A DNA stretch of 64,000 nucleotides from Liolophura sinensis (taxonomy: Eukaryota > Mollusca > Polyplacophora > Chitonida > Chitonidae). The notes beneath the pieces are model-generated. The model saw nothing but the letters and a program-made list of their open reading frames with translations. It made no database searches and was not told the DNA's origin. Below are positions 31,666 to 59,494 of this stretch, piece after piece (the first letter of the stretch is position 1; every line of letters begins with the position of its first letter). The DNA is taken from contig NC_088297.1 in assembly GCF_032854445.1 (NCBI RefSeq), positions 27,397,915 through 27,461,914 of the forward strand. Reading direction: 5' to 3'. Both the position numbers and the translations under genes were made by a program.

Positions 31666-34600
31666 GTGCGTACAATGAAACATCATCAAAAAGCACAAGC
31701 ACTACGGGAGGAGTTTGAGACGCTCCTAGGTGTGCGGCCGAAGTACCCACGGTCCCGCATTGCCTTGGAAGAACTGCAGGGGATCCTCGACAGGTATAAA
31801 ACGGCTGTGGCTGAGTTGAAGCGGCTGCAAGACAGCAAGAACTCCCGAAGTAACGAGGAGTTGAAGCAAGACGTCAGTAACGAGGAGTTAAAGCAAGACG
31901 TTAAGAACCTCATCAGTAACGAGGAATTGGATGAATTGCTAGGCGAAAAGAAACTAGAATTCATTAACACCGACAGGGTTATAAGGAATCTCCTCCGGGT
32001 CTGGCAGATGAATGTACCCGAAGGCGTTTGGACGGACTCACTAGCCTTCTTAGAAGAAGTTCGAGCTATTATTCGCCAGAAGCTAGAAGAAGAGATCCTA
32101 GCACTCAACGGGGTTCAATTCCAACTAGGCCTCAGGGTTCAGTTGCAAAAGAGCAACGCCGATGGCAGTGAAGAGTATACCAGCCCAGTACTACACAACA
32201 AACAGGAGGCCCTCTTAGAGGCCGGTGACATTGACGGGGCTCTAGAAAAGGCCTTCCCCACCATCCAGGAGGTGCTAGAAAAATGGACACAGCGAGAGTC
32301 AGGGTGGGTTGTCAATAGCGTGCAAACACTCTGGCTTGACATTGCAAGGTATCAGCCACTGAGAGGCGGGTCCTACATCCCCCTACCCGCAGCTGTGAGT
32401 AACAAGAAAGCAGTCATCGGTGTGAAGAACAAAGACGACGACTGCCTCAGATGGGCACTCCGGTCTACCTTATTTCCAGCCGCCGGGCACCCTCAGAGAC
32501 CAACAAAGTACCCCACCAATGATGGTCTTGACTTTGGGGGGATCGACACCCCCACGCCCATCTCTCAGATCCCTAAAGTGGAGTAAAAGAACGACCTCGC
32601 CATCAACGTGTTCGGGTGGGACAAGGGCGTGATCGTGCACCGCCTCAGCAAGAAGCCCGGCGACATGCCGCGAATCAATCTGCTGCTGATTGATCATGCA
32701 GAAATGTGTCAACCAGTCAATGCCGTTTTAACTCTGTTGAGGTTGACGGCCGCTGCCAAACTCCTCACCTCGTTTTTTGACAGCATGATATCGGCTAAGC
32801 ATCTGCGGGAGAATATTGACTATAAGTATTTTGTTCAGTCTTAACATTGAAGGCAGTTATACTGAATTTAGTGTCTTTAAAGATATAACTGTGAAGAAAC
32901 TACTGGTTAACAAAACTTCGCCCTGTTTGTGCAGAAAAAAATGTATCTTTGTATGGCAGAGGAATAGTTTGTTTTCTGTCGGACACTCACACGAGGGCCG
33001 AATGACTGTTTACAAAAATGGCGTCCCGTGGGAAATGCATATCGAAAAGGTCCATTGCTCTTTGGGAGGACGATTTAAAATCAAATTTTGAATTTACGTT
33101 GGATGATGGAGGAGAGAAAGTAGTGGCTGTAACATGCAGTCTGCTTACATTTATGTTGTTATTTGAGTGCCTCTGTTCCTAATGAATAAATCTGTTGAAA
33201 TTTTCAACACTGGTTTTAACATCAAACTAAAAAACGCAACTTTGTATCATCAGTTAATAAGGTTTTCTCATATGTTTATCATATGCTGAATTATGGTATT
33301 CATTTATTGTGTCCTGTTGCCGGATTGTTAGATGGCACTTGTGACAAGGGCTCGCCATCAATAAAAGTCGATTTAGGTTAATTTGTCACCAAACCGTTTG
33401 TGTTTAAAGTTTTGATAAATCTAAATATTAAAAGAGTTAAACTGAATTTTAGTTGTTTCTTACATGTATATACATTTATTTTGAGAATTTTCGTTTTGAC
33501 TCTTTAGGCTCTCGCAAATGGCAGTAGTGGGAGTCCACCTGGACTCTCGCGTCTCCGCACGAAATTCTGACCCTGGAACGCCCCGTGGAATACAGAGGCC
33601 CTAATGCGACAGAACACTTCCTCAGAGCTCTCCAACAGGAGGAGCGGGAAATCAAAAATGTTCTAGCCAACCTTATACCCATGAATATGACTCCCCAGGA
33701 CTGGCAGGCCCACAACAATGTGTGTGAGAAGCCTCTAGGCGCCGATTCTGTGCGCGATCACTGCCATATCACCGGCAAGTACAGAGGCGCGGCCCATAAC
33801 GCATGCAACCTAAAGTTGCGGCTGGGTCCCAAGACAGCCATACCAGTAGTCTTCCACAACCTACGGGGCTACGACGGGCACCTCCTGATGCAGGCCATAA
33901 AGTAAGGCGGAGGGCCGCATCTCCTGCATCCCCAACAGCACGGAAAAGTACATCTCCTTCTCACTGGGGCAGCTCCACTTCATCGACAGCATTCAATTCT
34001 TACCGACTTCCCTTGACAACCTGGTAGAGGCCAACAAACCGGAGGCTTTCCACATCACAGCCCGGTATGAGCCCGCCGAAGAAAAATGAAAGGTACTCAT
34101 GCGTAAGGGTGTCTACCCCTGTGAGTATATGGACTCCTGGGAGCGCTTCGACGAGTCAAGCCTCCAACCCAAAGAGGCTTTCTACAGTAATCTCAAAGTC
34201 AGAGGCATTAGCGATGAAGACTACATCCACGCTCAACAGGTATGGAAGGTATTTGACTGCACCAATCTGGGAGACTACACAGGCCTTTACTGCCGCACAG
34301 ACGTGCTCCTGTAGGCCGATGTGTTTGAGGCCTTCCGGAAGACTTGTTTACGGCAGTATGGATTGGACCCTGCACACTACTTTACGAGCCCAGGTCTCTC
34401 GTGGGATGTGCTGTTCAAGAAGACCGGGGTAGAGCTGGAGCTGTTGACAGACTACAACCAACATCTCTTCATTGAGAAGGGGTTGCGCGGAGGTATCTTC
34501 ATGGTAAGTAAGCGATACGCCAAAGCCAATAATCCGCAGGTGGAGGGATACAACCCAGAAAGTCCAAACAGCTACATCCAATACCTAGACGCCAATACCT

Positions 34601-35752
34601 TCCAATGGGCGGCTTCCAGTGGGTAGATGACGCACGGCGTCTCGGCGAAACGATTGCTACCCACCCCCACGACAGTCCTTCAGGTTACATCCTCGAGGTT
34701 GACCTAGAGTATCCGGCCGGCCTACATAACTCACATAACTGGTGGTCCAGAAGGAGTGGATGTCAGACTATCAGCACGGCCTTCTCGGTAGGTCTACCGA
34801 GGTCGAAAAGCTGGTCCCCAACCTCCGCAACAAGGAACGGTACGTCCTGCACTACCGGAACCTACAGCTGTATCTATCTCTGGGAATGTTCACCGGGCCC
34901 TGAGATTTGCCCAGAGCCCTTGGATGGAACCCTATATCAGGATGAACACCAAGCTCCGAAAAACGGCAACGAGTAAATTCGAGAAGGACCTGTACAAGGT
35001 AATGAACAACTCGGTCTTCGGAAAAATCATGGAGAACCTTCGGAAGCGTGTGGATGTCAAGCTGGTATGCTCTGGAGAAGACGATAAGATCCGGCGCTTG
35101 ATAGCCAGCCCGAGCTTTGCACGGGCGAACATATTTGATGATGACCCCGTTTCAGATGCACAAGACCCGTCTAGTCCTAAACCGACCTATCTACGTGGGC
35201 ATGAGCATTCTAGATCTCTCCAAGCACCTGATGTATGACTTCTACTACAACCACATGAAGGCCCAGTACGGAGAGCGCTGCCAGCTCCTCTACGCTGACA
35301 CAAATAGTTTGCTACTCGAGATTAAGACTGAGGATGTTTATGGGGATATAGCTGAGAATGCAAACCTGTACGACACCTCAGATTACCCACAAGACCACCC
35401 CCTGCACAGCGTAGCAAATATGAAGGACAAGTGCGCGGGGCGGCAGATCGTCGAATGCATGAATCGTCTGCGCCCCAAGATGTACTCCATTCTGGAGGCA
35501 GGTGGAGCCAACATTAAGAAGGCCAAGGGCGTGAAAAAGGGAGTTGTGGAAAAGCGCACCCGCCATAAGCAGTACAAAGAGGCCCTCTTCGAGAAAAAGA
35601 TCTTCCAACGCAGTATGGACGTGCTGCGATCAGAGCGCCACCATATCTATGGGCAGCACCTGAATAAGGTCTCACTGTCCCCCTTCGATAGTAAGCGCTG
35701 GATAGCCGAAGATTGTGTCCACACTTTGGCTCACGGCCATGCGCCTCCTTGA
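31666..35752 (+). pseudogene. P2 protein-primed DNA polymerase B, decayed
   Basis: Polinton-type PolB, which would copy the linear element from a terminal protein. The N-terminal block (31666-32586, about 306 codons) is open: coiled N-terminus with NEELKQD repeats, then LRGGSYIPLPAAVSNKKAVI. A stop follows at 32584. Sequence 32690-33567 is foreign. The frame resumes at 33585 with an HNH-like block (CEKPLGAD..VRDHCHITGKYRGAAH) and IPVVFHNLRGYDGHL. Further pieces (34099-34314, 34321-34626, 34924-35238, 35117-35752) carry DAN and MNNSVFGK motifs, separated by frameshifts and deletions. In motif C the second aspartate reads asparagine (ADTNSLLLEI). Close to the P1 copy at 52146-55536. Confidence 0.85.
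32690..33567. other. foreign segment replacing part of P2 PolB
   Basis: Relative to P1, PolB homology stops after CTGCTGATTG (32683-32692) and resumes at AACGCCCCGTGGAATAC (near 33570). The intervening 880 bp has short ORFs and matches nothing else in the window. No clear inverted repeats or target duplication were found. Confidence 0.55.
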
Positions 35753-35775
35753 CAGCAGGATGGGACTTCGAGGAA

Positions 35776-35979
35776 CTACCGTAGAAGCCCATCCGGGGGA
35801 AGTTGAGTATCAGGAGGCACTATAAGCAACTCCTCACGAACGAATCCCCGTCGCGAACCATCCGACGTATCGTCTAGATAGTACAGCACGGGTTCATTAG
35901 GCTTTGTGACAGAGCGCCCAAGCCGATATATCTCTAGAGACCAGACAGGGTCAGTCGCGCGACGGCGGTCGCCCTCCAA
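35776..35979 (-). pseudogene. integrase C-terminal remnant in P2
   Basis: Minus-strand IYRLGRSVTKPNEPVLYYL and GFVREELLIVPP resemble the SH3/chromo-like C-terminal end of Polinton integrases. No catalytic core is present. It differs from the P1 integrase end (48421-48927), so it comes from another family. Confidence 0.45.
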
Positions 35980-36425
35980 CTCTCCAGGCTGATAGAGATA
36001 ACGAGCGCCAACACCCTCAGGGATCTTCCGCTCATTAAGTACCAGCGCAGTGTCTTAGCCGCCGAGGCCCTTGATTCGGCCATGCTTACGGCCGGTTTGG
36101 GACTAGGGGTTGCAGGTGTGGGACTACTCACAACAATAGTTGCAGCCCCTGCTGTCTTGGCTATGGAAGCTGCGGCCATAGCTTGCGGTGTCTTAAATAC
36201 CGCCGTAAAATTCGTTAGCCGCCGACTTCACGCAAAGGCCAAGAAACATAACGATATACGGCTGAGGCTAAACTTAACAGCATCTGTGCGCAGGTATCTA
36301 CGGCATTATCTGATGGTGTTATTTCGGACGTAGAGTACACGCAAGTCGTTCAGGAACACCAGAACTACTCTGATCCAAAGCAGGAGACAGTGCTAAGTCT
36401 CGTAAGACATTCACCGCCGTAGAGA
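35955..36425 (+). pseudogene. membrane-protein remnant in P2
   Basis: Plus-strand LPLIKYQRSVLAAEALDSA then a hydrophobic segment (GLGLGVAGVGLLTTIVAAP) and KFVSRRLHAKAKKHNDIR, followed after a frameshift by SDGVISDVEYTQVVQ. This protein type is frequent in Polinton-rich invertebrate genomes, where it is uncharacterised. Truncated. Confidence 0.55.
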
Positions 36426-37349: not shown

Positions 37350-40300
37350 CAGTGAGACCAGCAACAAGGTGTAAGTATGGCATCCGCGGAGAAGGCTTTG
37401 CCGTATCGTGTGACCTGGGCGCAAAACGAAGCCTTGCTGAAACTTATGGAAAGAACAGGATACACCATACGGCATAAAAAAGGGCAAAGAAAGTACGGCG
37501 GTCCACCTCCCGACTGGGAAAGCCCGCCTCCTTTAAAGGGTTGCGAACTTTACATCGGAGGTATTCCAAGAGACTGTTACGAAGACGAGCTTGTTCCAGT
37601 ATTTGAGAAGATAGGGAAGATTTACGAACTGAAACTCATAATGAGCTACCTCTCTGGATCCCATAGAGGATATGGATTTGTTATATACACTAACGAAGAA
37701 CACGCGAATCAAGCGGTAAAGGAGCTTAACAACTACGAAATTCGTAAAGGCCAGCTCTTGGGTGTTTGCAAATCTGCCGTAAGTCATGTAATTTCCACTA
37801 TAGAAGCTTTATTGGTTGTCTCTTCGTTGCAAATTAAAACACATTTAATTGCCAATGTAGACAGCACCAGACGTCGGAAATATTGGTTGGTTAGTTGTAA
37901 AATTCACGAGTATGTATCACAGTCCAAACAAATTTGACCAAATTTGAATTTATGTAAGCCGTTATTTGAAAAGTTATAATTGAACTAAAGTTTTTTGTAT
38001 GAAAGGGGTATTTTGTGAGGGTGGATATGTGTAAAATGTTGCGTAACTTCTTGAAATTTCTTATCGTCTGCTCTTTCATTTTCTGTCACGAGAAGGTGGT
38101 GTGTGCGCGCGCGCGCGCAACATTTCTTACAACAAGTGATTTCTTTTGTGTGGGAGGCTGCGGTAATAATTAATATGGTCACTTATGGCTTGAAAGCACT
38201 GATGCATCGTCATCTTGTCCATTAATATTGTGCATATTTGTATGGCTGGAATAATATTTATGTTGTGCATATTTGTATTACAGAGGAGAGTTTTGCACGT
38301 GGGGAACCTTACGTCGAGAATTACAGAAGACAAAATTAGAGAGCTGTGCAGTCAAGTTGTGGGAAGAGACAATGTTGTGGAAAGAGTAAAGAAGATAAGA
38401 GGTTTTGCATTCATTCATTTTAGAGACAGAGATGATGCTATTATGGCCATGACTAAACTTAATGGTGAGAAAAATTATTTATTTTGGAGTTGTGTTGATT
38501 GGTTTTGGATAAATACAAAATGCATTAATGGAAGTATATTTCTTCTATCGGTAGGCGAATGTAGTTTTTGTGTGCATTTATAGAGTGTGATATATTTCCA
38601 TTCTGATAGTTCTGTTTCTGATAAGTAAAAGTTCATTTTCGTTTGTCAGTCGCATGTGGTCGCATTTTTTTAACTAGTTTTTCACTTGATTGATGTTTAC
38701 AGAAAATTACATGATAGAATATCCACCAACATCTAAGGGAGAGTATTTGGAAAACATGCTAACTCGAGTAATTAAGATGAAACAGTGAATAACTGACACA
38801 TCGCTTGCCTATAGGATGTTTAATACTCCAACTACGTACAGGAAGTGGCTCACAATTATGGGACAGACTTACATATATTTACAGAAGAGCACATACAGTA
38901 TAAATTCACACTTCAAAGCATAAGGTGTGGGCATTGTCTAGAATATTTGTTTGGATAAATTTCTGTATAAATTGGATTTTATGTTAGCTTATTATTAACT
39001 TAATATCATCCCTCATTCAACATGGATGGGAAGGTCTGCCAGCAACCTGTGAATGGTTGTGGGTTTCCACCAGGCTCTGCCTGGTTTCCTCATGCTATAA
39101 TGCTGGTCACCGTCGTATAAGTGAAATATTCTTGAGTACAGCGTAAAAACGCCAATCAATAAATCATTCAGCATGAAAAAAAGCTGTTGAACATTAAATG
39201 ATCAAATGTTTAAAAGAGGGGAGTTGTTTCAACAGTTACATGTAATAGGCTGAATATTGAACCCAAGCTCCCAGGACCATTTTGCCAGGAATTTTTTGAG
39301 AAAATAAGAAGTTTTCTTGGGAAAAACTCTAGGTAGACTGTATCTGGAACACTTTTTAACTGATGTGTAGCATTTGTACTACGTCCTCATTCTTTCAAGA
39401 AATAAAACTAAAGGAAGATCAAGGTGAGAAGGCATTATATAATAAGTCATATATATTTCTCTCTAGGAATGAATGTTGAAGGCACTTGCATTGAGGTTGT
39501 ATGGGCAAAAGGAAGAAATCAGGTAAGAAATGATTTGGTCAATGTTACTGCCACATCGTGAAAGTCATCTCAAATGTGTAATTCAGGACAGCCCAGCGAT
39601 CATCCTCTCCCATAGGTTAAGTTTGTCTGTAACATAGTATGTGAAGTAAACTGTGTTAAGTTGGAAGGGTTCAAATGTTTTCATATTGAGAGTTTGTGGA
39701 AGGTATTTGGTCGGGAACCGGGACCTGTCCACATTTTTCCCCCATCAGCTTTCTTTCACCATTGTAAACTCATCTGTCGTGTATGTGTGAAGTAAGCTTT
39801 GCATATAAACACCAAATTATTTATATATATTTATATCTGGTAAATAATTGAATTTTACTACTGATGAAAATTCTTTATTGCAGGCTAATCAGGACTGTCA
39901 CTTGGATGAGGTTGATAGAGCATACAACAGAGGCCAGGAAGCATTGGAATCTTGGAAGCAGAGAGTATCATATGTCAGGGTAAGAGTTCCTCATATGGTA
40001 GGACATGGGGTTCTGTTATGTCAGGGTAAGAGTTCCTCCTATGTTAAGGTAGGGGGTTCTCATATATCTGTAGCGGGTTTTCATATATGTGGGTAGGAGG
40101 TTCTCATATGTCAGGGTAAGAGTTCCTCATATGTCAGGGTAGTGGGCTCTGTTATATCAGGGTAAGAGTTCCTCGTATGTCAGGGTAGTTGGCTCTTTTA
40201 TGTCAGGGTAAGAGTTCCTCATATGTTAAGGTAGGGGGTTCTCATATATCTGGGTAGGAGGTTCTCATATGTCAGGGTAAGAGTTCCTCATATGTCAGGG

Positions 40301-43300
40301 TAGTGGGCTCTGTTATGTCAGGGTAAGAGTTCCTCATATGTTAAGGTAGGGGGTTCTCATATATCTGGGTAGGAGGTTCTCATATGTCAGGGTAAGAGTT
40401 CCTCATATGTCAGGGTAGTGGGCTCTGTTATATCAGGGTAAGAGTTCCTCGTATGTCAGGGTAGTGGGCTCTGTTATGTCAGGGTAAGAGTTCCTCGTAT
40501 GTTAAGGTAGGGGGTTCTCGTATACCTGGGTAGGGGGTTCCCATATGTCAGGGTAAGAGTTCCTCATATGTTAGGGTAAGGGGTTCTCATATGTCAGCAT
40601 AAGAGTTTCTGGTATGTAAGCATAGGGGTTTCAGATCCGGTATGCAAGGGTAGGGAATGCCACTGATGGCTTATGATGTTGAAATTTTCCAGTGTGTAGT
40701 AATATTGAAGGCTCATATGTGTAGTATAGTGCCTTAGCCTTTCGGGCAGTTGATTAAAAAAATGATTAGAACTACATGCTAAAAATCTTTTATAATAACT
40801 TTTTTAATCGGTGTATAATACTATATTCAAGAATTGTCACATTATTCCACCACAATCAGGTTTATGGATGGAGGAAATTGGAGTAAGACCTGGATTTGTA
40901 CATGAATTTATAGGTCAAGTGGAAGCAAGTCAGCTGTTCAACCGTTTGAGCGAATCTGCTTTTATGCATGCTTTGGTTGTATGACAAGTGTACTTGATAC
41001 TGTGACAAATTTTTCAGGGCTATGGCTATGATTTTGATCCTAGTTACTCTCCACCATCGTTTTACAACCCGATGTCTCCACCACCCGCAAGGTAAGAACT
41101 ATTTTGGCCTGAAATCCACAACTCTGTTCACCCAATATAAGAATACAGATGAGAATCCAGCACAGCAGATGATCTTGCAGTCAGAAAAGAGTTGTTTTCT
41201 TGGAATTTTTATAAAAAATCGGTTAGCTTAGAACAATTTTTGAAGAATTAGGAGCATAGGTTGTCATATTCCACCGTGTGTGTCCAGTTTGTCTTTTTAA
41301 TATCAGGGTTCTCAGAACTGTCAGATGCTCCGTCATTTGTGTGCTTCAGACCAGGGACAGGATATTTGTCTTTGGTTTTAAATCATTTCAGTTATGATCA
41401 TCTAAGATGAAATCTTAGATAACCTAAGATTATATTTTACCTTATGATTTGTCTGTAATAACTGTAACTGTAAATAAGCATAGGTAAGTGGGTTTTACAA
41501 AGTACAGTATTGTAGCTCTCCTGCTGATATGTTAATGGATACAGAGTACAGAGTGAGAACTAGAAAAATGACACGGGCAAGTCTACTTTGGAAACTGAAA
41601 TCCAAAATGAGGTAATGACGGATTTCAGTTGGAAGGTGCTTCACAGGGAGCAGAAATATTTGCAAGACTGTGCAAGGCATAGCTTTATTGAAAACAGGCG
41701 ATTTTATTGAATGGTAGGGGCTTGCTTTTTGCCAAGAATTAATATGAACTTCGTACCACCTGTGACCTATATTCTTTAATTGTCACTCTGTAGCTTTCCA
41801 TTCATCAGCATACATGTAGGAAAGGTACACTACCATATTTAGTGGTTTTGCCATTGTGGCTGATAGAGTCATTTGACGTGAAAGAAGTTGCATTTATGTG
41901 TTATCCATGCGATGTCCTCAAAAAAAAAAAACGTTCTATGAACTTCTTACATGTAAGTATACAAAGAAGCATTAGGTTTCATCAACCGAACCTTAATAGC
42001 TCAATATATTTGATTTTATGTGAACATCTCAGTAGGAAAAGCAGGAAGAAGAAACTTTAAGAAGGCTCAGTCACATAATTTTTACCATGAAATAGCTTGA
42101 ATATTTGTGCTTTTTGTACTGTTAGCAGGGGGTTGGCAGAGCAAGGTCCCATGGGCATCAGAAGCCCTGTGGGAGGCCAAGGGATGATGAGTGGGTGGGG
42201 CTTTAGGAAACATCCAGCAGAGGTGTGTATCGTTGTCAATGCAGAAGGTTTCTGGTCCCATATCCCATTAAAAAGTTGCGCATTGCAACATATTCTGAAG
42301 CATGCTTAAAAGGACTATGCAGTCATAAAGTCTACAATCTGCCTACGCCGTACTAAAAGACATGAACCGATTGTGCAATTAACCAGAAGGTGAGTTAGTT
42401 CAGTTTCGTTGAAGATGGGTGTTTGTTTAAACTTTGAAGTAACAGGTAACATACTTAGAAACTAATTCTTATCTAATATTTCCTATACATGTAATGAGTT
42501 TTGAATTAAATTTCGTTAATCAGGTGTGTTAATAGCCAAAAAAAAATTGGCTGTCTTGTTATCATTGAAAGTTGTCATAATGCAAGGCTCTGTGTTTAAC
42601 CTTTGACCATGATTTTGTTTTGTGGAAGAATTTTTGTTTTACTAATTACCTTTAATTTATAGCCTGATTGCCCGAGTGAGGCTTCAGTAAATCAAGAGTG
42701 TCAAAAAGTGTATGCATGTAACGATGTTCACTATAGGTGCTCGATGACCTTTGCCAGAAGAATGGATGGGGAAGTCCTGTATACGAGCTTCAGTCTCCCA
42801 TGGTAGGGGATGGAAGTGGTGCCCAACAGCTCTTTTTGTACAAGGTACTACCATAGGTTTCAACAAAATGTTGATAAGAAACTTGTTTGAAGAGATAAGA
42901 ATCAAGTTTTTTTGCTGGAATGTAACTTTTTTTATACAATTAATCATGTCCATGTGTACCAGAAAGAATAAGAAGTAAATTATCTTATAAAAATAATTGA
43001 TCTGAAGTAAATCGAAAAAAAAGAATTTCGTGGTTGTGATTTATACATGTATAAGTGTCATGTAGAAGTTGATGTTAGACATTTACATTGGTAATCTATG
43101 GTAAAGTACATTTGTCTTTCAGATCACCATACCAGCTCTCGGTACTCGGTTTCCAAATCCTAACCCATTTACCCCAATTAAACTGTGTTCTACTGTTGAG
43201 GGGGCAAAGGTTTTTGCAGCAGAGTACACTTTGATGCAGTTAGGTGTGCCTCTTGAAGGTAAAGTTAGTGTCCAGAGAAAAAAGGAAAGACAAACAAATG

Positions 43301-43907
43301 CTTCACAGCCCAAGCTCTACCCTTTTTCCCAAATGATACATCATTTTATAAGTGGCCATTGTATGCTTTGATTTCTTCTTTCTTTCCTGAACCAGCTTTG
43401 CTTCTTGAAAGTTAATTTAAGAAAGTAAGAGCTATCTCATTTTACATGTTTGTAACAGTATATGAAAAGTATAAAAAAACTTCTTTACTGGATAATATGT
43501 AATAAGACATGCTGCAAAAACTTAATTGCTGAAAATTACTATTCATAGCTGAGCTGTTTGCCGTTATGTAAGCACTTGTGACATGCATCAGGTATTCTGT
43601 GTCTTAGCAACTCGTTTGAAGAATGAATGGTTAAATACTCACATACATACATGCATGCGGTTACCCAAGTATATTTTGAATGAATATTAGCCAGGAAAGT
43701 AACTATTTGCATAACTAGAATTGTCAGAGTTTATTGTTTTGTGCTGCAGCCCTAGAGTACATTGGCCCACCATATCCTTACACCCAGCCGAGCTATGTCG
43801 CCCACCCCGACCCACCTTCCAACAGATCATGTGAAAAGCCATGGATGGACCTAAGGTACATGTATATTGATCAGGCACTTCAATCTCTAAGACAATGTAT
43901 AACTTAG
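37350..43907 (+). CDS. A1CF-like: A1CF/RBM46-family RNA-binding protein lacking RRM2 (9 coding exons)
   Basis: Family: A1CF, RBM46 and RBM47 are RNA-binding proteins; A1CF helps APOBEC1 edit RNA, and RBM46 acts in meiotic germ cells. Coding exons: 37377-37778, 38284-38464, 39467-39522, 39884-39979, 41018-41091, 42129-42222, 42737-42844, 43123-43258 and 43750-43907. All phases agree and there are no stops. Product about 434 residues: [20 protein letters not shown] leader, RRM1 (57-133; [16 protein letters not shown]), RRM3-like (137-205; [15 protein letters not shown]), linker, and C-terminal dsRNA-binding fold (302-382; [36 protein letters not shown]), closest to A1CF. RRM2, present in known members, is missing: exon 1 joins exon 2 exactly where it should be. 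Readthrough of exon 9 gives a stop at 43905 and a poly(A) signal at 43980; splicing to 44816 gives another end. It lies inside P1. Confidence 0.9.
39015..39175 (+). repeat. SINE in A1CF-like intron 2
   Basis: AACCTGTGAATGGTTGTGGG, TATAATGCTGGTCACCGTCG and the GTGAAATATTCTTGAGTACA tail. Confidence 0.75.
39971..40625. repeat. splice-donor minisatellite in A1CF-like intron 4
   Basis: The end of exon 4 and its donor (TATGTCAGG/GTAAGAGTTCC) are themselves the first unit of a tandem array. ATGTCAGGGTAAGAGTTCCTC recurs about ten times, interleaved with TATGTTAAGGTAGGGGGTTC and TATCTGGGTAGGAGGTTC units, within 640 bp. Confidence 0.9.
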
Positions 43908-43979
43908 ATTAGGGCCTGGACACTAAACACCTGCCTAAACACGGCTCGCGTGAGAAAGGATTGTATTATAATGTGCCAT

Positions 43980-43985
43980 AATAAA
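43980..43985 (+). terminator. poly(A) signal AATAAA of the A1CF-like gene
   Basis: Lies 73 bp after the readthrough stop codon (43905-43907). The region around it is preserved in the inverted copy at 23879-24098, which supports use as a real 3' end. Confidence 0.55.
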
Positions 43986-44374
43986 GACCGCATATTGACC
44001 GGTCATGTTTTGTGCTATTAATTGAATGGCTGAAGTATTTGCGTCTTATAATATTGTTATTGATCGCCAAAAGTTTTCAAAACCAAGGTGCGTAAAAGCG
44101 GCCTTGCAGGAAAGTCAAAGCGCCTGAGCGATATCAGTGAGTCGCCAAACTTGGGGTTTAAGAAGCAAATTCGGAGCGAAGCTGTTGTTTCTTCACACAC
44201 AGAAAAGTTATCATTTTGTCCAAGTATGTAGCGAATAGTTTTGTTTGGTCGATTACATCTTGTGATCCCTGATCATCTGAACTACTGTGTGTAACTGACA
44301 GCCGTGTACATGGGCTTGACAGGCAAACATGACTTTTTCACATGGGTTTAATTCACCCGGCACGGAGAGTCCTG

Positions 44375-44482
44375 TTTCACCAGATTGCTTCTATCTCCTG
44401 AAGTCTCAAAATGGCCGCCGTCGTATAAGTGAAATATTCTTGAGTACAGCGTAAAACACCAATCAAATAAATAAATAAATCT
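44375..44482 (+). repeat. SINE tail in A1CF-like last intron
   Basis: AATGGCCGCCGTCGTATAAG, TGAAATATTCTTGAGTACAG and CGTAAAACACCAATCAAATA AATAAATAAAT. Confidence 0.8.
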
Positions 44483-44815
44483 CAGAATGGTTTGGATATA
44501 ATGTTCTAGCCATTCTCTTGGTCCGCAGTTGTTTTGCTATGTGGTTTGAATCTTAAAGCACTGATGATAAGGCTCAAACATGTTTAGTAGGCCTATGGAG
44601 CGAAACATTTAGGACAGTTTTAACAAGGGGAATAAATCTGGGGGTGTAGTATCATGGTATAATTAGTTACTTCCCTTTGAATTTTATGGAGCAAAACATA
44701 GGAATGTCAGAGCTTTAATTCAATCAGGCGTTACTGTATCAATGTAAAATGTTGAACATCTGGACATTGCTTTGGTTACTTAACCAGCTTCAATTTATGT
44801 TCTTTCTTATTTCAG

Positions 44816-44927
44816 TTTAAACATGGCAACTTCAAGATATCACTTGTTCGATCAGCCAGAAGAAATTGACTTCCTAGCCGTGTTCCTTGGAGCAGGAGGC
44901 GGAACCTGTGAGGACAATGGAAAATAA
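44816..44927 (+). CDS. alternative last exon of the A1CF-like gene, or short leader ORF of Nanos-Myc
   Basis: A strong acceptor (TCTTTCTTATTTCAG, 44815) fits the phase of the exon-9 donor at 43855 (phase 2) and would add a tail ending NGK with TAA at 44925. The same frame has its own ATG at 44823 (MATSRYHLFDQPEEIDFLAV), 34 codons. The end overlaps the start of the Nanos-Myc frame (ATG 44917) by 11 bp in the +1 frame. It may therefore be an A1CF-like C terminus, a leader ORF, or the true N terminus of Nanos-Myc separated by a one-base change. Confidence 0.5.
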
Positions 44928-45408
44928 AAGAATCAAGAGAAAGGTCAATCCTACAAAGCACACCTTTTGTGTGTTATGCAAGAATAATGGCGAGATGCTG
45001 TCGGTGTATGGTATGCACGTTTTGCAGGATGACTCCGGTTGTGTGACATGTCCAATCCTTTGGCGTTACACCTGTCCTATATGTGGGGCAGTCGGGGATA
45101 ACGCACACACCGTCAAATACTGTCCCAACAACGTGAACCGAGAAAGGCAACTAAGGAATTACTTGAAACAAAGCTTCTTGGAATTAAAAGACGCAGTTCC
45201 AGCGCTCATACAACAGGAAAGGGTACCAAGAGTGGTTATATTGAAAAAAGCCACAGACCACATTCATGAATTAACTACGAAGCAAAATGTTATGTTGACA
45301 GAACTGCAAATACAGAGAGAGCGAATTAGCAGCTTATTGGAAAGCTGCGGTTACTACAGTGTTGAAAGCTTGTACATTACCTGTCGTCGTGCCCTTGTGT
45401 TCATGTGA
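44917..45408 (+). CDS. Nanos-type zinc finger fused to Myc-type HLH leucine zipper
   Basis: 163 residues from ATG 44917, uninterrupted. Residues 18-69 form both Nanos zinc knuckles with exact spacing: C18, C21, H34, C45 and C53, C56, H64, C69 (FCVLCKNNGE, RYTCPICGAVGDNAHTVKYC). Nanos proteins bind RNA with Pumilio and repress translation in germ cells. Two residues later, from about 73, the protein turns into the Myc C terminus: ERQLRNYLKQSFLELKD, a loop, PRVVILKKATDHIHEL, then a zipper (to about 141). VVILKKAT is a Myc signature. The Myc basic region is mostly missing: the KRR cluster and the contact histidine are replaced by the Nanos end, and one arginine is leucine; the glutamate of ERQ and one arginine remain. 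The upstream frame closes at TAG 44875, so the start is ATG 44917 (TTG 44887 is possible) unless spliced from an acceptor such as 44912, in phase with exon 9. The frame is single-exon and sits inside P1. Confidence 0.9.
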   Translation: MENKRIKRKVNPTKHTFCVLCKNNGEMLSVYGMHVLQDDSGCVTCPILWRYTCPICGAVGDNAHTVKYCPNNVNRERQLRNYLKQSFLELKDAVPALIQQERVPRVVILKKATDHIHELTTKQNVMLTELQIQRERISSLLESCGYYSVESLYITCRRALVFM

Positions 45409-46039
45409 TTGTCATTGCAAGACGGAGAGGCGTGAAGCGATCACAGTGTGATACTTGGTTACCATTATTACCATGCCTTGCTACCCAGCTTACCACAAGC
45501 GGTAGGGGTTTTACCACTAACAGGACTGACTGATTGTTTCATTATGTTGTGAACTCGTTTTGATTTTCATTTTGCAGAGGTATATATTTCCATTATTGAA
45601 GAGAAGTTGTTCTTTATGGTGCAATTTCATACATGCCCTACTTGGGTATTAGTGCTAACATTAACTGTATGGGACTTCGCTGCTCGCATTGATTTAACTG
45701 GAACTCTTTATCATCAAGCATTTGAAAGTTGTTGTTTTTGTTTGTTTCCATTTTCTTGCTGTTAAAAGATTCATCTTTTTTTTTACTATTTTTAATCCAT
45801 TTAAGAAAACAGCTTGCTTGACGTTTTCATTTTGCAAGAAGACTAGTTTTTGTGTAGCATTTTATTTTTTTTTCTTACGACAAACAGTGGCTGTGATTTT
45901 TTTGAGTGCGAGACCCATGTACTGTGTACAGTTGACGTTTGTGTTGGAAAACCATTGTTGTATTTTAAATGGCGTGCTGTGAGCATTTCATTCCATTTTT
46001 GTCTCATGTTGAGGGTCTGTCCCTGTGAGTGTACATATC
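45409..46039 (+). other. Nanos-Myc 3' flank
   Basis: T-rich sequence with no ORF of interest; likely 3' UTR. No clear AATAAA before the transposon at 46040. Confidence 0.45.
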
Positions 46040-47082: not shown

Positions 47083-47280
47083 CATATCTGTGCATTTATC
47101 ACCATTACTGGCCTCTGATTACAGATGTTTAGGAAACCACATCTGTACTAATAGAGCCAGACATTTTGACACCTGCTTTGACCTGTCTTTTCAAAGTCTA
47201 ATTAGCTGTTCAGTGCAACCATTTATCATTTATTTTCAATATCATGTATTTATCATTTACACGTATGGGTTCTGTTAGGT

Positions 47281-47700
47281 TCCTCATAGCAAGTACTGCA
47301 AGTTTCTGTTGAAGATATTAGTATGTTTCGGTATATCCTTTCGTATTTCAGTATGTTGGTATGTTTCGGTATATCCTTTCGTATTTCAGATTTTTGATAG
47401 AAAAGATAGACTTGCTCCCCATAGCAAGTACTGCAAGTTTCTGTTGAAGATATTAGTATGTTTCGGTATATCCTTTCGTATTTCAGATTTTTGATAGAAA
47501 AGATAGACTTGCTCCCCATAGCAAGTACTGCAAGTTTCTGTTGAAGATATTAGTATGTTTCGGTATATCCTTTCGTATTTCAGATTTTTGATAGAAAAGA
47601 TAGACTTGCTCCCCATAGCAAGTACTGCAAGTTTCTGTTGAAGATATTAGTATGTTTCAGTATATCCTTTCGTATTTCAGATTTTTGATAGAAAAGAATA
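47281..47700. repeat. 97-bp tandem repeat
   Basis: Four copies of ATAGCAAGTACTGCAAGTTT ... GATAGAAAAGATAGACTTGC starting near 47286, 47421, 47518 and 47615; the first carries an extra 38-bp sub-duplication. It ends in ATAAAACATTG and a 14-A run (47709), which looks like a retroposed or polyadenylated end. Confidence 0.9.
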
Positions 47701-47724
47701 AAACATTGAAAAAAAAAAAAAAAG

Positions 47725-48078
47725 AAATCTTTAATATAACCTGGTAGTTGTTTTCTCCTTCATGGTCATTTGGTTGTCTTGTATATATGTGTTAAGATTA
47801 GTTGATAAAGAATAATTGGATTTAACCGTTTAAGAAATGGCTGTTACATATCTTGCTTAAATATGTGGATGTTGGTGAAAATACAGATGCTGAAAATATG
47901 TGCGAAATACCATCACATTGATCTCCTCCAAGTTTCTTATAAGCTTCGAGATTTTCTGATCCAAGAGTAGACAACTGGGTCGTCAGTGGACCCTTGAGTT
48001 CATTCCAGCCTATTATCCAACCTTTTGACGTAGCCGGTCAGCCAGCCTGACAAACCACATACTACAGTACACAAGGCA
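47725..48078. other. no gene seen
   Basis: AT-rich sequence between the 97-bp repeat and the integrase region; nothing recognised. Confidence 0.4.
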
Positions 48079-51770: not shown

Positions 51771-52047
51771 GTCAAAGAGTCTCAATATGTGCCGGTGGCT
51801 TCTCATCGGCTCTACAGAGCTCTGTGGTAAGAGTTGTCTGCGGGAGTACTACGGCTTCCACCTATACCGTCTGCGGAAGGGTCCTGGCACCCAGCCATGT
51901 ATTGGCTGTGGTCGGGGCGTTAAAAACCGATTTCAGCTTTGGGGGGCCTGCGGATATAATAATGTCCAGACGCGTGAAATGCAGCAGAGGCACAAGGCTT
52001 TCTTGGACGAGTTCAAACAGCTGGCGGCTATCGAAATTTCATATTAG
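51770..52047 (+). CDS. P1 zinc-ribbon protein, one cysteine lost
   Basis: Same small protein as at 24646-24924: CLREYYGFHLYRLRK, then CIGC. The third ribbon cysteine is tryptophan here (LWGACGY), and another conserved cysteine (EYCG) is tyrosine, so zinc binding is doubtful. The frame is open from ATG 51770 to TAG. It is followed by the PolB leader. Confidence 0.6.
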
Positions 52048-52145
52048 AGAGACACCACCACAAGGCATGTGATGATATTGCACAACGACGAATACAAACG
52101 GCTATCGAAATTTCATATTGGATAGGCACCGCCACTAGGCATACA

Positions 52146-55100
52146 ATGAAGCATCATCAAAAAACGCAAGCACTACGGGAGGAGTTTGAGACGCTCCTAG
52201 GTGTGCGGCCCAAGTACCCACGGTCCCGCATTGCCTTGGAAGAACTGCAGGGGATCCTCTACAGGTATAAAACGGCTGTGGCTGAGTTGAAGCGGCTGCA
52301 AGACAGCAAGAACTCCCGAAGTAACGAGGAGTTGAAGTAAGACGTCAAGAACCCCCTCAGTAACGAGGAGTTCAAGCAAGACGTCAAGAACCTCCTCAGT
52401 AACGAGGAGTTGGATGAATTGCTAGGTGAAAAGAAATTAGAATTCATTAACACCGGCCGGGCTATAAGGAATCTCCTCCGGGCCTGGCAGATGGGCGTAC
52501 CCGAAGGCATTTGGACGGACCCAGTAGCCTTCTTAGAAGAAATTCGAGCTATTATTCGCCAGAAGCTAGAAGAAGAGATCCTAGCACTCAACAGGGTTCA
52601 ATTCCAACTAGGCCTCAGGGTTCAGTTGCGAAAGGACAACGCCGATGGCAATGAAGAGTTTACCAGCCCAGTACTTCACAACAAACAGGAGGCCCTCTTA
52701 GAGGCCGGTGACATTGACGGGGCTCTAGAAAAGGCCTTCCTCACCATCCAGGAGGTGCTAGAAACATGGACACAGCGAGGGTCAGGGTGGATTGTCAATA
52801 GCGTGCAAACACTCTGGCTTGACATTGCAAGGTATCAGCCACTGAGCCACAAAGACGACGACTGCCTCCGATGGGCACTCCGGTCTGCCTTATTTCCAGC
52901 CGCCGGGCACCCTCAGAGACCAACAAAGTACCCCACCAATGATGGTCTTGACTTTGGGGGGATCGACACCCCCACGCCCATCTCTCAGATCCCTAAAGTG
53001 GAGGAAAAGAACGACCTCGCCATCAACGTGTTCGGGTGGGACAAGGGCGTGATCGTGCACAGCCTCAGCAAGAAGCCCGGCGACATGCCGCGAATCAATC
53101 TGCTGCTGATTGGGAAGGCAGGCAATTTCTATTATACGTGGATAAAAGACCTCAACCGTCTCCTGTTCCAAGAGAGTAAGGCACACCATTGCAAACACTT
53201 CTGCGAGCGCTGCCTACACGGTTACACAAGGGAGGATCTTCTCAAGGCGCATAAGCCGGAATGCTGAGGGATTGGCCAGACGGCGGTGAGGGTGGAAATC
53301 CCCCAGGAGGGGGAAAATAAGTTCACCTTTCAGAACCACCACAAATAGCTACCGGCTCCGTTCATCATATATGCCGACTTATATACGAGGCTCTGAACAG
53401 AAAGGTTGAAGGCCCGCCGCCGTCACCTACAGAGAGCAGCACTCAAAAGACTCAGCACCACGAGCCCTGCAGTTACTGCTATGTTGTGGTGCGTTGCGAC
53501 GGCCGCACAAAACGCCCCGTGGAATACAGAGGCCCTAACGCGACGGAACACTTCCTCAGAGCTCTCCAACAGGAGGAGCGGGAAATCAAAAATGTTCTAG
53601 CCAACCCTATAGCCATGAATATGACTCCCCAGGACTGGCAGACCCACAACAACGCCGCAACCTGCCACGTGTGTGAGAAGCCTCTAGGCGCCGATTCTGT
53701 GCGCGATCACTGCCATATCACCGGCAAGTACAGAGGCGCGGCCCATAACGCATGCAACCTAAGGTTGCGGCTGGGTCCCAAGACAGCCATACCAGTAGTC
53801 TTCCACAACCTACGGGGCTACGACGGGCACCTCCTGATGCAAGCCATAAGTAAGGCGGAGGGCCGCATCTCCTGCATCCCCAACAACACGGAAAAGTACA
53901 TCTCCTTCTCGCTGGGGCAGCTCCGCTTCATCGACAGCGTTCTTGCCGACTTCCCTTGACAATCTGGTAGAGGCCAACAAACCTGAGGCTTTCCGGTATG
54001 AACCCGCCGAAGAAAAACGAAAGCTACTCATGCGCAAGGGTGTCTACCCCTGTGAGTATATGGACTCCTGGGAGCGCTTCGACGAGTCAAGCCTCCCACC
54101 CAAAGAGGGTTTCTACAGTAAGCTCAAAGTCAGAGGCATTAGCGATGAGGACTACATCCACGCTCAACAGGTAGGTAGGTATTGACTACACCAATCTGGG
54201 AGACTACACAGACCTTTACTGCCGCAAAGACGTGCTCCTGTTGGCCGATGTGTTTGAGGCCTTCCGGAAGACTTGTTTACGGCAGTATGGATTGGACCCT
54301 GCACACTACTTTACGAGCCCAGGTCTCTTGTTGGATGCGCTGTTCGGGGTAGAGCTGGAGCTGTTGACAGACTACGACCAACATCTCTTCGTTGACAAGG
54401 GGTTGCGCGGAGGTATCTCCATGGTAAGTAAGCGATACGCCAAAGCCAATAATCCGCAGGTGGAGGGATACAACCCAGAAAGTCCAAACAGCTACATCCA
54501 ATACCTAGACGCCAATAATGTATATGGCTGGGCTATAAGTCAGTTCCTTCCAACGGGCGTCTTCCAGTGGGTAGATGACGCGCGGCGTCTCGGCGAAACG
54601 ATTGCTACCCACCCTCACGACAGTCCTTCCGGTTACATCCTCGAGGTCGACCTAGAGTATCCGGCCGGCCTACATAACGCACATAACAGTTACCCATTAG
54701 CCCCGGAGCGTCTGGTGGTCCAGAAGGAGTGGATGTCAGACTATCAGCACGGCCTTCTCGGTAGGTCTACCGAGGTCGAAAAGCTGGTCCCCAACCTCCG
54801 CAACAAGGAACGGTACGTCCTGCACTACCGGAACCTACAGCTGTATCTATCTCTGGGAATACGCCTGACCAAGGTTCACCGGGCCCTGAGATTCGCCCAG
54901 AGCCCTTGGATGGAACCTTATATCAGGATGAACACCGAGCTCCGAAAAACGGCCGCGAGTAAATTCGAGAACCTGTACAAGCTAATGAACAACTCGGTCT
55001 TCGGAAAAACCATGGAGAACCTTCGAAAGCGGGTGGGCGTCAAGCTGGTACGCTCTGGAGAAGACGATAAGATCCGGCGCTTGATAGCCAGCCCGAGCTT

Positions 55101-55536
55101 CGCACGGGCGAACATATTTGATGATGACCTCGCAGCGATTCAGATGCTCACGACCCGTCTAGTCCTAAACCGACCTATCTACGTGGGCATGAGCATTCTA
55201 GATCTCTCCAAGCACCTGATGTACGACTTCTACTACAACCACATGAAGGCCCAGTACGGAGAGCGATGCCAGCTCCTCTACACTTACACGGATAGTCTGC
55301 TACTCGAGATTCAGACTGAGGATGTTTATAGGGATATAGCTGAGAATGCAAACCTGTACGACACCTCAGATTACCCACAAGACCACCCCCTGCACAGCGT
55401 AGCAAATATGAAGGTCTTGGGGAAAATGAAGGACGACTGCGTGGGGCGGCAGATCACCGAATACATTGGTCTGCGCCCCAAGATGTGCTCCATTCTGGAT
55501 GTGCAGCATTGCGTCCATAATCACATAGAGATATAG
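52146..55536 (+). pseudogene. P1 protein-primed DNA polymerase B, decayed
   Basis: Polinton PolB in pieces. Leader and N-terminal block (from 52146; a TAA at 52338 splits it; open again 52410-53267) end in a zinc-finger-like HFCERCLHGYTREDLLKAH. Stops at 53265, 53346 and 53395 fall in the exonuclease start (FIIYADLY, where the usual glutamate is tyrosine). The HNH-like block follows at 53650-53760 (CHVCEKPLGAD, RDHCHITGKYRG). After frameshifts near 53955 and 54180, the polymerase core 54232-55536 holds motif A (YLDANNVYGWAI), motif B (LMNNSVFGKTMENL) and motif C, whose first aspartate is tyrosine (TYTDSLLLEI). The C terminus is cut at about 55490 by a 106-bp duplication with capsid 3' sequence. 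Not functional. Confidence 0.9.
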
Positions 55537-55641
55537 TCTGCCCACAGATAATCGCGCAGTGGGCGTCATCAATAAAACGCGTTAACGAATCAACCATTCT
55601 GGATGTGCAGCATTGCGTCCATAATCACATAGAGATATACG
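55491..55641. repeat. tandem duplication at the PolB-capsid junction
   Basis: CATTCTGGATGTGCAGCATT GCGTCCATAATCACATAGAG occurs at 55491 and 55597 (106 bp apart). It is capsid 3' end sequence in reverse, abutting the truncated PolB end. Confidence 0.85.
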
Positions 55642-56797
55642 TTCAACACGCCGGGATCTTCTCTTTCTTTTGTCACCTGTATCATAATCTCTTCTCTGGC
55701 GTTCTGAACGCGCCTCCCACTGCCATGCAGCTCGTCATCGTCGCTTGGCCGAAGGTCAAGCCAGAAGGCGTGCTTGTGGGTCAAGAACTCTTTATGGGAG
55801 ACATCTGCCAGGCCTAAGTCTTTTACGACCCTGGCCACGTCAGGGTCCCGCTTCTTATGGGGTGAGCTGGCGAAGAACCTCTGGACCTCGCCCCATTGCT
55901 GGTACGCCCGCATGCCCTGGCTGTACAGCTGATTGGGGATCCCTTCTATTGTGACTTCTACTTTGGTGATCTTCGGGTTGTAGAAGGATTCCGACCTCCT
56001 CCCCCACGGGGTTCTTTTAGCCTCGAACAGCATGAGGATGCCCTTCATTGCTCTCTCGAGTGTTCAGGTTTATGTTCCAGAGAGTATCAGACTTGTCCTT
56101 AACAAACTTTCGGTGGCGGAGGACGCAATCATACAGAACAGAGACGCCCCCTGCAAACTGGGTGCGGATCTGTCTAGCGAGCTCCTCATCGGTGACCATA
56201 TCGAACTCCAGGCTGATGTTGTCGATGGTGTAAGTCGTGGTAGAATGGCATGTGGCCATCTAGAAGCTCAATGTCTAGCGGGATGTGGAACCGGCTGCCA
56301 AAGGCACGAGCGATGGCTTTTTCTCCAGCATTGTCGTCACTTGCGTCCTCCGCTCCGACTCGAAGTTTAAGCATGTTTTCGCTGCCGATGCCTTGGTAGG
56401 CCGCATTCCTCCGTTCGTTTTTGGTCAGCCATAAGTCGTCGTAGCAATGAAACACATCAGAGTCGTCGATGGACATTACCTCATTCCCGCTTATTCTGAT
56501 CGTGGTTTTCTTGACTACTGCGCGTCCGAGATTCCCGACCACTGTGGCGTTCGGGTCGGATGAATTGATCGTGATCGAGAAGGCCAAGCGCACGGTGCCG
56601 GGCACAATGACGTCATTTGGGCCGAGGTTGGGGAAGCGGACCAAGAGTTGTTGATTCTTGTCGATCGTACTCGGGTTGTTGGTGACGACTAAGGACTGCC
56701 GTACACCTTGTACCCCCCGAGGCTTACGGAGTGTTCTGAAGGGGTTTAGCTTGCGTCCGTATGCATCCATTGTGTGTACTGAAGGTATACCTTGCAA
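55590..56797 (-). pseudogene. P1 major capsid protein (double jelly-roll), two frameshifts
   Basis: Read right to left. The N-terminal part (56797 or 56770 to about 56230) contains VPGTVRLAFSITINSS, VVKKTTIRISGNEVMS and FHIPLDIELLDGHMPFY. The middle (56259-56017) contains ISLEFDMVTDEELARQI. The C-terminal part (56048-55590) contains MKGILMLFE, FYNPKITKVEVTIEGIPNQL and LYVIMDAMLHIQ. These are the landmarks of Polinton/adintovirus major capsid proteins. Frame changes near 56235 and 56035 break it. The start lies 45 bp from the divergent membrane-protein gene (56815). Confidence 0.8.
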
Positions 56798-56814
56798 TGT
56801 TCAATACGAGGATT

Positions 56815-58174
56815 ATGGCAGACTTTGACGTTGATGATCCGTTCGAAGCCCAAGAGGACTACGCCAAAGACGACGTCGTCGAACAGACCTCTCTCTTTAC
56901 AGGTGATGTTGTTCCCAAGGCACCAATATTGGGTACGATCTACGAAGCTCAAAAACCAAGGTTGGTCCAGAACGCCGTGATGTCTTATTACAAAATCATG
57001 GCGAAGGATTCTTGGTATCCCGACTTCCCCCCACTCCGTTTTAGCGAAGAAAATAAGTTTATACTTGTCAATGGGCGTCTGCGACTCGTGAATTACCCAG
57101 AACTGGAACTCACCAACGAAAAGAATGGCGAACCACTAGCCCTCACAACAATCGCCCGGAGAGGAGGAGGGAGAAGGACTGTTACGAGTGTGGATGGGCT
57201 GGGCTTTGTAGACTGGAATGGAGAAAGCAGAGTAAAAAACAGAAAACAGCCATCGTTGCATCCAGCAGCAGTTGCAGCTCTGGAGACAGCGAGTTTAGAA
57301 CTCGGTGCCGCGGCTGAAGGATTTAAACCAAGCAGCGAAAAAGGTCGCTGATGCAGTCCACACACTGGAAACAAGCTTGACGGATAGTGAGGTCGGGCGG
57401 GTTATTGAAACGATGAACAACACTCCTCTTCCCATACAAGAGATGAACGACCCTCCTCTTCCCATGGGAGAACTTCTGGGGCTTAACAAGGCACTGCAGA
57501 CCTTGGAAGGCGAACACGCGTATAACAACGCCAGGCTGTCAAAATTAGATATGGAAATCGCAGAAGAAAAACAGAAGTTGGGAGAGGCCCCTAATGATGA
57601 TAATAATAAAGACTTGCGGAGACGGATCGAAGCCCGGATAAAAAATCTCGAGGACGATAGGGTGAACCGGCTTGAAGCAACCTCTTTAACGGCTGAAGCC
57701 CTGCGCACGCAAATACACCGCATCAAGCAGACGATCGATCGCATCCTACACAAGGATACCACTCTGGCCGAGCGCGTCCGCACCCTCTTCCGGGAGCAGG
57801 GAATAACAGTGGTCTCCATTCTCACGGCATTTGGGATGGCGATCTCGACACTGGGGCTAGCGATAAAGTTGGCGCTGACTGGCGGGTCCGGCGGGGGCAT
57901 CCAGCCAACACCACCTCCACCCGACGGGCGTGGTCTTAAAGAATTGGTGATAAGGCATCTCCAGTCCCTGGTGCGCGCCCTTGGCAAGCTGGCTGGGAAG
58001 GCTGCCGCTGCGATTCCGGGTATTATTGGCAGTATCGTGTCCTGGCTACTGAACCTTCTCGGGAAAGCAGCTGGGTGGCTGGCCGATATTGTCTGGGCTC
58101 TAGTCATTGCAGTAGGTGGCCTAATGCTCGTGGCTGTTCGCAATTATTTAACGCATAGTCTGCAGAAGCAGTAA
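56815..58174 (+). pseudogene. P1 conserved membrane protein, one frameshift
   Basis: Two overlapping frames form one protein of about 450 residues. The first (ATG 56815 to 57351) has YYKIMAKDSWYPDFPPLRF and LVNYPELEL. The second (57305-58174) has a coiled region (about 57480-57700), then hydrophobic segments (GITVVSILTAFGMAISTLGL; IIGSIVSWLLNLLGKAAGWL; WALVIAVGGLMLVAV). The frame change lies near 57305-57345. Proteins of this type are frequent next to capsid genes in Polintons; a virion membrane or minor structural role is an inference. Confidence 0.65.
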
Positions 58175-59494
58175 GCCGATACCAACCCTAGCGACGACGA
58201 TGGCTGTCTTCTCCGCATCGTGATTCTTTAGGGGTTCGGCGGCGGTGGGTGGTGGGACGCTTTCTTGTGGCTCAACGAGGGAAGGTGGTGGGACGCTTTC
58301 TTGCAGCTTAACGTGGAAAGGTGGTGGGACGCTTTCTTGTGGCTTAACGATCCCGTGGAAAGGTGCGCGCTTGTGCAAAGTGGGCGGTACTTTAGCGTTG
58401 ACACCCTCATTGGCGCCTAGCTTCTGGTCCTCTGTGGCCACGACGATTTTGTTGTTGTAGTTCGCCACATGGCCGATCTGCAGAAGCATGTCGCTGGGGG
58501 CCATATATAGGCCTATGCCATACACAAAGTCTACAGCGCTCCCGGCATACTGTAGCACGTTCTGGTAGCGTTTGATAGCAGACGGAAGGTCGATCGAAGA
58601 GGAAATAGCGTCTTCAACGTTCGCGGCAAACTGTTTTTGCGCGTCAAAGGCTGTGCCCGTGCCTAGAATACGCGCCCTTGTATGCGCTTGGGCGCCTAGA
58701 AAAGCCCGCACGTATGTCCAGATGGAATCGTTTAGGCGCTCTACGCCCAGCTGCGTGAATCCTTGGGATTTGTCGGCAATGAGCGACGCCCAAGCCTCCT
58801 CGGCGTCCTGCTGGATGTAGTCGACGTGGAGCGCTGTAGGCTTTCTAGAGAACGACATCCTGCTCGGATAGAAGGCCCCATCGCCAACGGGGCTGTAACC
58901 CGTTCTCGTGATATAGTAATATGCCACTCCGAGGCCGTGATTCACCCCCCTGCGCCTCCAGTCTGTGTGCTTATCTACGCGGAATTCCCTACAAATCCTC
59001 TCATAGGCCCTCTCGTCGTGGGGGTTTTTGAATGCCGCCCACGCTCTGTCTTGCGGCAGTGGGGCCTGGATCTCTTCCAAGGTCCGCCTAACTTGGTAAT
59101 ACACATGGAACGTGTACAGAGCCCTTATTTGTTTGTCGGGGGCGAGAAGATGGTCTTTTACAGAGACGCCGCAGCCCGTGGTTGCGCACCAGACCGCGAA
59201 GTTCACTTGGTTCTGCCAGAATTGCATAGGATTGATGTTCCAGGCCCGAACAATGTCATTGCTGGTTATCTGTGGCAGCCGGTACTTGGCCAACATATCT
59301 GTGAACTGGACTGGAAAGGCCTTCTTTTCATCGATGTAGATGTCAAATCGCGTGAGCTGCTCTGCGTGGGTTTGGATACTATGAAATGCCCCGGCCTTGT
59401 AAGTGGCCTCTCTATTGAACCTGTAAGCGTCGCTGTTCATCGTGGCTAAAATGTTCATCACATTGTCTGACATTCTAAACGGGGCACAGCACAC
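58148..59494 (-). CDS. P1 conserved structural-type protein
   Basis: An open frame of 448 codons; the likely start is ATG 59440 (MNSDAYRFNREATYKAG). Landmarks: FHVYYQVRRTLEEIQAPLP, WRRRGVNHGLGVAYYYITRT, VYGIGLYMAPSDMLLQIGH. The C terminus has three imperfect repeats of a proline-rich unit (QESVPPP). I know this as a recurrent unnamed gene of Polinton-like elements but not its function. It overlaps the membrane protein 3' end by a few bases. It is one of the few P1 genes with an unbroken frame. Confidence 0.6.
   Translation of the reverse strand: MCCAPFRMSDNVMNILATMNSDAYRFNREATYKAGAFHSIQTHAEQLTRFDIYIDEKKAFPVQFTDMLAKYRLPQITSNDIVRAWNINPMQFWQNQVNFAVWCATTGCGVSVKDHLLAPDKQIRALYTFHVYYQVRRTLEEIQAPLPQDRAWAAFKNPHDERAYERICREFRVDKHTDWRRRGVNHGLGVAYYYITRTGYSPVGDGAFYPSRMSFSRKPTALHVDYIQQDAEEAWASLIADKSQGFTQLGVERLNDSIWTYVRAFLGAQAHTRARILGTGTAFDAQKQFAANVEDAISSSIDLPSAIKRYQNVLQYAGSAVDFVYGIGLYMAPSDMLLQIGHVANYNNKIVVATEDQKLGANEGVNAKVPPTLHKRAPFHGIVKPQESVPPPFHVKLQESVPPPSLVEPQESVPPPTAAEPLKNHDAEKTAIVVARVGIGLLLLQTMR

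Follow-up and report, generated by a model that had tools for sequence, protein, structure and literature searches.

The window (the whole stretch of 64,000 nucleotides of Liolophura sinensis DNA that was analysed) contains an open reading frame (ORF) of 163 codons lying directly behind an A1CF-like gene (Table 1). The ORF runs from a Nanos zinc finger through a Myc helix-loop-helix (HLH)-zipper into a frame-shifted end. Its domain matches are far above chance: Pfam zf-nanos matches residues 18-71 (E-value: 6.9e-22, covering positions 1-54 of the 54 in the profile), Pfam HLH matches residues 74-120 (E-value: 1e-9) and the top PDB matches are to Nanos (5.9e-17) and, in the second half, to c-Myc (8.2e-11). 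These matches bear out the original prediction that a Nanos finger and a Myc HLH-zipper occupy one open frame and that both CCHC knuckles of Nanos are present, as the eight zinc ligands (C18-X2-C21-X12-H34-X10-C45 and C53-X2-C56-X7-H64-X4-C69) have a spacing that we take to be that of the Nanos family. Two details had to be revised. Myc had been placed two residues after the last cysteine, whereas the first Myc-derived residue is E76, six residues past it. The proposed Myc C terminus with its zipper holds for the HLH-zipper, but the final 27 residues of the ORF are a frame-shifted Myc tail and former Myc 3'UTR and contain no zipper. The start codon corresponds to an internal methionine codon of the parental Nanos gene (PVGTMENKR). 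The ORF has these unusual limits because of a 2-nt loss after the old Myc ATG and a 1-nt loss in the zipper.

The adjoining A1CF-like gene can be modelled as nine exons (37377-44927) with all junctions in phase. The product of this model is the database protein P0014 ("APOBEC1 complementation factor-like isoform X2 [Liolophura sinensis]"), apart from 32 aa that P0014 has in addition. According to the database models, the last coding exon of this gene would be spliced at the acceptor of the old Myc exon, and its first residues are in the Myc frame. With the acceptor used in this way, the ORF would lie almost wholly in the A1CF-like 3'UTR; its ATG is 8 bases upstream of the A1CF-like TAA and in a different frame. 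The A1CF-like model is without the second RRM present in P0015 and P0020. A1CF/RBM46/RBM47-like proteins from L. sinensis, some of them isoforms, make up 16 of the 120 protein clusters listed, and the A1CF-like family seems to be expanded in this species. Elsewhere in the window, a fragment on the minus strand (23876-24098) is 82% identical to the end of the A1CF-like gene (43792-43996), and ORFs at 31624-36333 and 51978-59500 resemble, by eye, two Polinton/Maverick-type elements (polymerase-like and other frames).

Table 1. Features of the Nanos-Myc locus and the adjoining A1CF-like gene (window positions).
Feature	Position	Strand	Remarks
A1CF-like gene, first eight coding exons	37377..43855	+	37377-37778, 38284-38464, 39467-39522, 41018-41091, 42129-42222, 42737-42844, 43123-43258, 43750-43855
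Optional 32-aa exon of A1CF-like gene	near 39.88-39.98 kb	+	Extra stretch in P0014
Myc-derived intron/5' sequence	43995..44608	+	Two pieces, 43995-44405 and 44480-44608; ~80% identical to Myc locus; short repeat between
Myc-derived intron end, splice acceptor and start of Myc N-terminal exon	44685..44903	+	Acceptor tttcag, ending 44815; 89% identical to C7:26247058-26247280
A1CF-like last coding exon, from old Myc exon	44816..44927	+	P0014 ends here; TAA 44925-44927
Frame from old Myc ATG (44823)	44823..44927	+	2-nt loss common to W1-W3; stops after 34 codons at 44925-44927
Nanos-derived segment, 239 bp	44904..45142	+	From G000:C1 locus L008; mid-exon at both ends; 92% identical
Reported ORF, 163 codons + stop	44917..45408	+	ATG at 44917, stop ending 45408
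Myc-derived basic-region end, HLH-zipper, stop and 3'UTR	45142..45901	+	84% identical to C7:26249002-26249806
Old Myc C-terminus, N*QLIGKLRLLQC*	45324..45365	+	Out of ORF frame by 1-nt loss; contains TAG
Additional Myc-like flank	45915-46039, 47083-47351, 47416-48032	+	Myc locus match

The ORF had been read as Nanos joined to the C terminus of Myc. Genome comparison gives a different picture: the locus is a duplicate of Myc with intron sequence kept, its parent lying on contig C7, and ~1.7 kb from the middle of this duplicate has given way to a 239-bp piece of Nanos, whose parent lies on contig C1. The parental Myc gene (G000:C7:26249002-26249184, L012), of which P0010 is a relative, matches on both sides of the insert: the intron, the acceptor and the beginning of the N-terminal exon are shared on the 5' side, and the HLH-zipper, 3'UTR and flank on the 3' side. 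Bases ~4281-6001 of the Myc locus are absent and the Nanos piece stands in their place. The missing stretch comprises the remainder of the N-terminal coding exon, an intron and the following exon as far as the mid-point of the basic region, and what is presumably Myc box I falls within it. The N-terminal activation region with its Myc boxes is thus absent, just the first ~28 Myc codons being retained, out of frame in the window copy and its two near twins (W1-W3). The basic region is also incomplete, without its first half: the Myc part starts at ERKRRN (ERQLRN in W1-W3) and KRTQHNVL is absent. The parental Nanos gene (G000:C1:24540149-24540373, L008), of which P0001 is a relative, has a 274-codon open frame with its own tail. 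Its likeness to the chimera (92% DNA identity) is confined to the 239-bp zinc-finger segment (213 bp in copy D7, 143 + 30 bp in copy D6) and has sharp mid-exon ends, the Nanos N-terminus and C-terminus being missing from the chimera. A short repeat at 44412-44482, ending AAACACCAATCAAATAAATAAATA and with seven more matches in the window, interrupts the Myc-derived intron.

Two other derivations of the locus were considered and rejected. A retrocopy (processed pseudogene) does not fit, as Myc intron sequence is still present before the acceptor, and so is the genomic flank on the 3' side. A Nanos gene with a further Nanos part upstream of the ATG, hinted at by tblastn, was dropped because the genome comparison shows Myc there. 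A genome search with the 217 bp upstream of the ATG gave 17 matches: the seven copies of the chimera on contig C3, with D5 split in two, the Myc locus, and a further eight that were short (≤57 bases). In a frameshift-aware test, this upstream likeness to Nanos was weak, with the score for P0001 reached by 5/150 shuffles and 3/150 genomic pieces and that for P0002 reached by 49/150 and 57/150, respectively.

Relatives of the ORF occur elsewhere on C3. In a whole-genome search with the ORF (150 matches listed; 150 of 183 candidates scored), the copies other than the window copy (W1) were W2 (99% identity), W3 (98%), D4 (73%), D5 (53%), D6 (77%) and D7 (93%, Nanos half only). W1-W3 are mutually ~98% identical over ~11.5 kb, and D4 and D5 lie ~5.6 kb apart in opposite orientation within an inverted duplication (G000:C3:4540562-4547031; L004, L005). 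A genome search with the Myc half (8 candidates, all scored) found seven places, six C3 chimeras and the parental Myc gene on C7. The Nanos-Myc joint recurs in W2, W3, D4 and D5; D6 and D7 are deleted at or beside it. All seven copies share several changes in the Nanos-derived segment, among them GCC to GTC, TTT to TTA and the replacement of the first A of AAG by C, so the Nanos insert had a single origin. The genome comparison thus indicates that the architecture is Myc-Nanos-Myc and was made once, at the DNA level. A1CF-like exons adjoin W1, W2 and W3; near D4-D7 (~12-16 kb upstream of each), P0014 matches only the shared last-exon stretch.

All seven copies found carry lesions. W1-W3 keep the Myc ATG (44823), but the 2-nt deletion ends its frame at 44927, and a 1-nt deletion shifts the end of the zipper and leaves a TAG in the old frame. 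D4 is in frame to the Myc stop, its ATG is changed to ATT and two of its zinc-ligand cysteines are changed to tyrosine. D5 has an ATT in place of the ATG, a CAA in place of the acceptor CAG, a broken frame and stops. In D6, the frame opened by the Myc ATG continues across Nanos as far as the Myc stop (156 aa), but deletions have removed one half of the zinc finger as well as the beginning of the Myc part. D7 has lost the HLH-zipper by deletion. The CCHC knuckle pair, intact in the window copy, is lost in D4, D5 and D6.

The copies also change as dead genes do, with a near-neutral dN/dS of ~1 among them. Compared with their parents, the Nanos part gave an omega of 0.80-1.25 (7/7 copies) and the Myc part one of 0.70-1.37 (6/6 copies having it), values that take in the parents' own, probably constrained, branches. 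The fused copies alone were profiled by likelihood, with one omega for the whole of a fixed tree and a coarse grid of 9 omega and 3 kappa values. For both parts together, the peak was at an omega of 1.3, and the log-likelihood dropped by 0.57 at omega 1, 3.33 at 0.7 and 19.58 at 0.3. The Nanos part alone gave drops of 0.51 at omega 1 and 10.91 at 0.3. The Myc part alone, peaking at 1.0 with drops of 2.16 at 0.5 and 7.11 at 0.3, is less decisive, and weak constraint on this half is not firmly excluded. Open frames are no proof of selection, as they were often kept in a neutral simulation (5000 runs): the frame stayed open in 41% of runs for D4, 37% for D6 and 30% for the W trio, and two or fewer distinct stop positions were seen in 22% of runs. 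All three stayed open together in 6.8% of runs, which counts mildly against a pseudogene.

Based on these results, we predict, with a probability of nearly 0.9, that the Nanos-Myc locus belongs to a family of chimeric, unprocessed pseudogenes: the copies are intron-keeping, DNA-level duplicates with frame or domain lesions in 7/7 cases and a neutral dN/dS. A stretch of Myc several kilobases long, intron included, would have been copied to C3, where ~1.7 kb of it was swapped for 239 bp of Nanos, most simply as filler in the repair of a break. With both joins in frame, a short protein made up of a Myc N-terminus, the Nanos zinc finger and the HLH-zipper could have been the product of the first chimera. 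Duplication would then have carried the chimeric locus to seven or more sites on C3, every copy found having decayed. In W1-W3, the chimera lies directly behind the A1CF-like gene; the old Myc acceptor would now serve the last coding exon of that gene, with the chimeric ORF sitting almost wholly in its 3'UTR, probably without useful translation.

An alternative in which the chimera has had a function is that the small protein of Myc N-terminus, Nanos finger and HLH-zipper is an inhibitor of Myc that binds both RNA and Max. Its usefulness in the chiton germ line would have been the reason for its multiplication, and one copy or more would still produce it. The candidate copies would be D6, with its 156 open codons, or the window trio by way of the A1CF-like transcript. 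With its basic region incomplete, a Myc-type protein would not be expected to bind DNA in the manner of Myc. We consider such an inhibitor improbable.

A more direct version, that the window ORF itself encodes a working protein with an RNA-binding finger and a Max-pairing zipper, would need translation to begin at the ATG at 44917, perhaps through reinitiation once the overlapping A1CF-like frame has ended. This agrees with the retention of all eight zinc ligands and the HLH core in W1-W3, with a frame that is open in these three near-identical copies (176 codons stop to stop) and with the place of the ORF's exon in an annotated gene model. However, the differences among the copies fit an omega of 1, and the few coding differences among W1-W3 include C/R, E/K, G/R and L/W. 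Furthermore, the end of the zipper is out of frame, the ORF runs out in former 3'UTR and the frame of the Myc ATG terminates at 44927, so that this ATG has ceased to lead into the chimera. With lesions in every copy and half of the basic region gone as well, the claim of a working protein made in the original prediction is not supported and such a protein is unlikely; the chimera probably does not work as a protein at all. If it were made, Nanos-like finger and Myc-like dimerisation activities would be predicted.

The exon may instead matter solely through its terminal place in the A1CF-like gene, to which it would add a recently arisen de novo C-terminal tail of 37 codons, some of them read in the frame of old Myc, with the Nanos-Myc part as 3'UTR. 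P0014 ends exactly in this exon, whose phase fits that of the eight exons upstream, and another L. sinensis database protein, P0027, ends in a third frame of the same exon type. The tail is known from a database gene model only, and several A1CF-like paralogues (for example P0015, P0020 and P0025) stop before such an exon, in FQQIM. As the whole explanation of the locus it is about as unlikely as a working protein; it is compatible with a pseudogene origin of the chimera. Finally, nothing was found in favour of an assembly error joining Nanos and Myc, and this is refuted, to near certainty, by diverged copies at separate places on C3 that carry both joints and shared derived changes; the halves are joined in a single uninterrupted stretch, as had been predicted. 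The earlier interpretation is thus partly supported: the chimera is real and unusual in origin, and is most likely a decaying genomic fossil rather than a working new protein.

Unprocessed chimeric pseudogenes arising from segmental duplication and filler-DNA repair are a recognized class. The decaying chimera resembles them in being a DNA-level copy with its intron, in its sharp mid-exon joints and in its near-neutral decay. It differs in that two developmental regulators from separate contigs (C7 and C1) became fused in frame on contig C3 and were multiplied, and in that, in three copies, a neighbouring gene model uses the chimera as its terminal exon. Searches for a fused homologue elsewhere gave none. 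Neither domain was accompanied by the other in any of 12 protein matches (E-value ≤ 0.001, 17 candidates; 11 Nanos only and 1 HLH only) in a search that reached close relatives only. A region search returned no matches, but carries no weight as a negative, since it also missed P0010, which the protein search had found. Of 10 pattern matches on viral contigs, none was confirmed. A literature search that covered few subscription journals turned up neither a report of a fusion of this kind nor any work on Nanos in chitons. A chiton assembly first named L. japonica was later corrected to L. sinensis (PMC12441733); it is presumably the assembly analysed here.

Nanos sequences are multiplied elsewhere in this genome as well. 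A second Nanos gene forms a tandem array (G000:C11:17950666-18196940; L029-L032) of at least 138 copies, which account for 138 of the 150 matches listed in the ORF search; its units are ~1.5 or 1.67 kb long and ~98% alike. Of 20 zinc-finger frames in four stretches of the array, 14 have a length of 201-218 aa, and 12 copies of equal length show 2 synonymous and 10 nonsynonymous variants among them. A third type of Nanos occurs in a small cluster (G000:C1:59619533-59646359; L033, L034), with four members among the matches listed and three open frames of 222-228 aa.

The Nanos-Myc family would be a clear case of a multi-part chimera that was born by DNA-level copying, had its frame left open largely by luck, was multiplied and was taken up as the terminal exon of a neighbouring gene. 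It also calls for caution: two well-matched domains in an open frame do not by themselves make a new gene. If any of the copies were translated, the product would link RNA binding of the Nanos type with the Myc/Max network.
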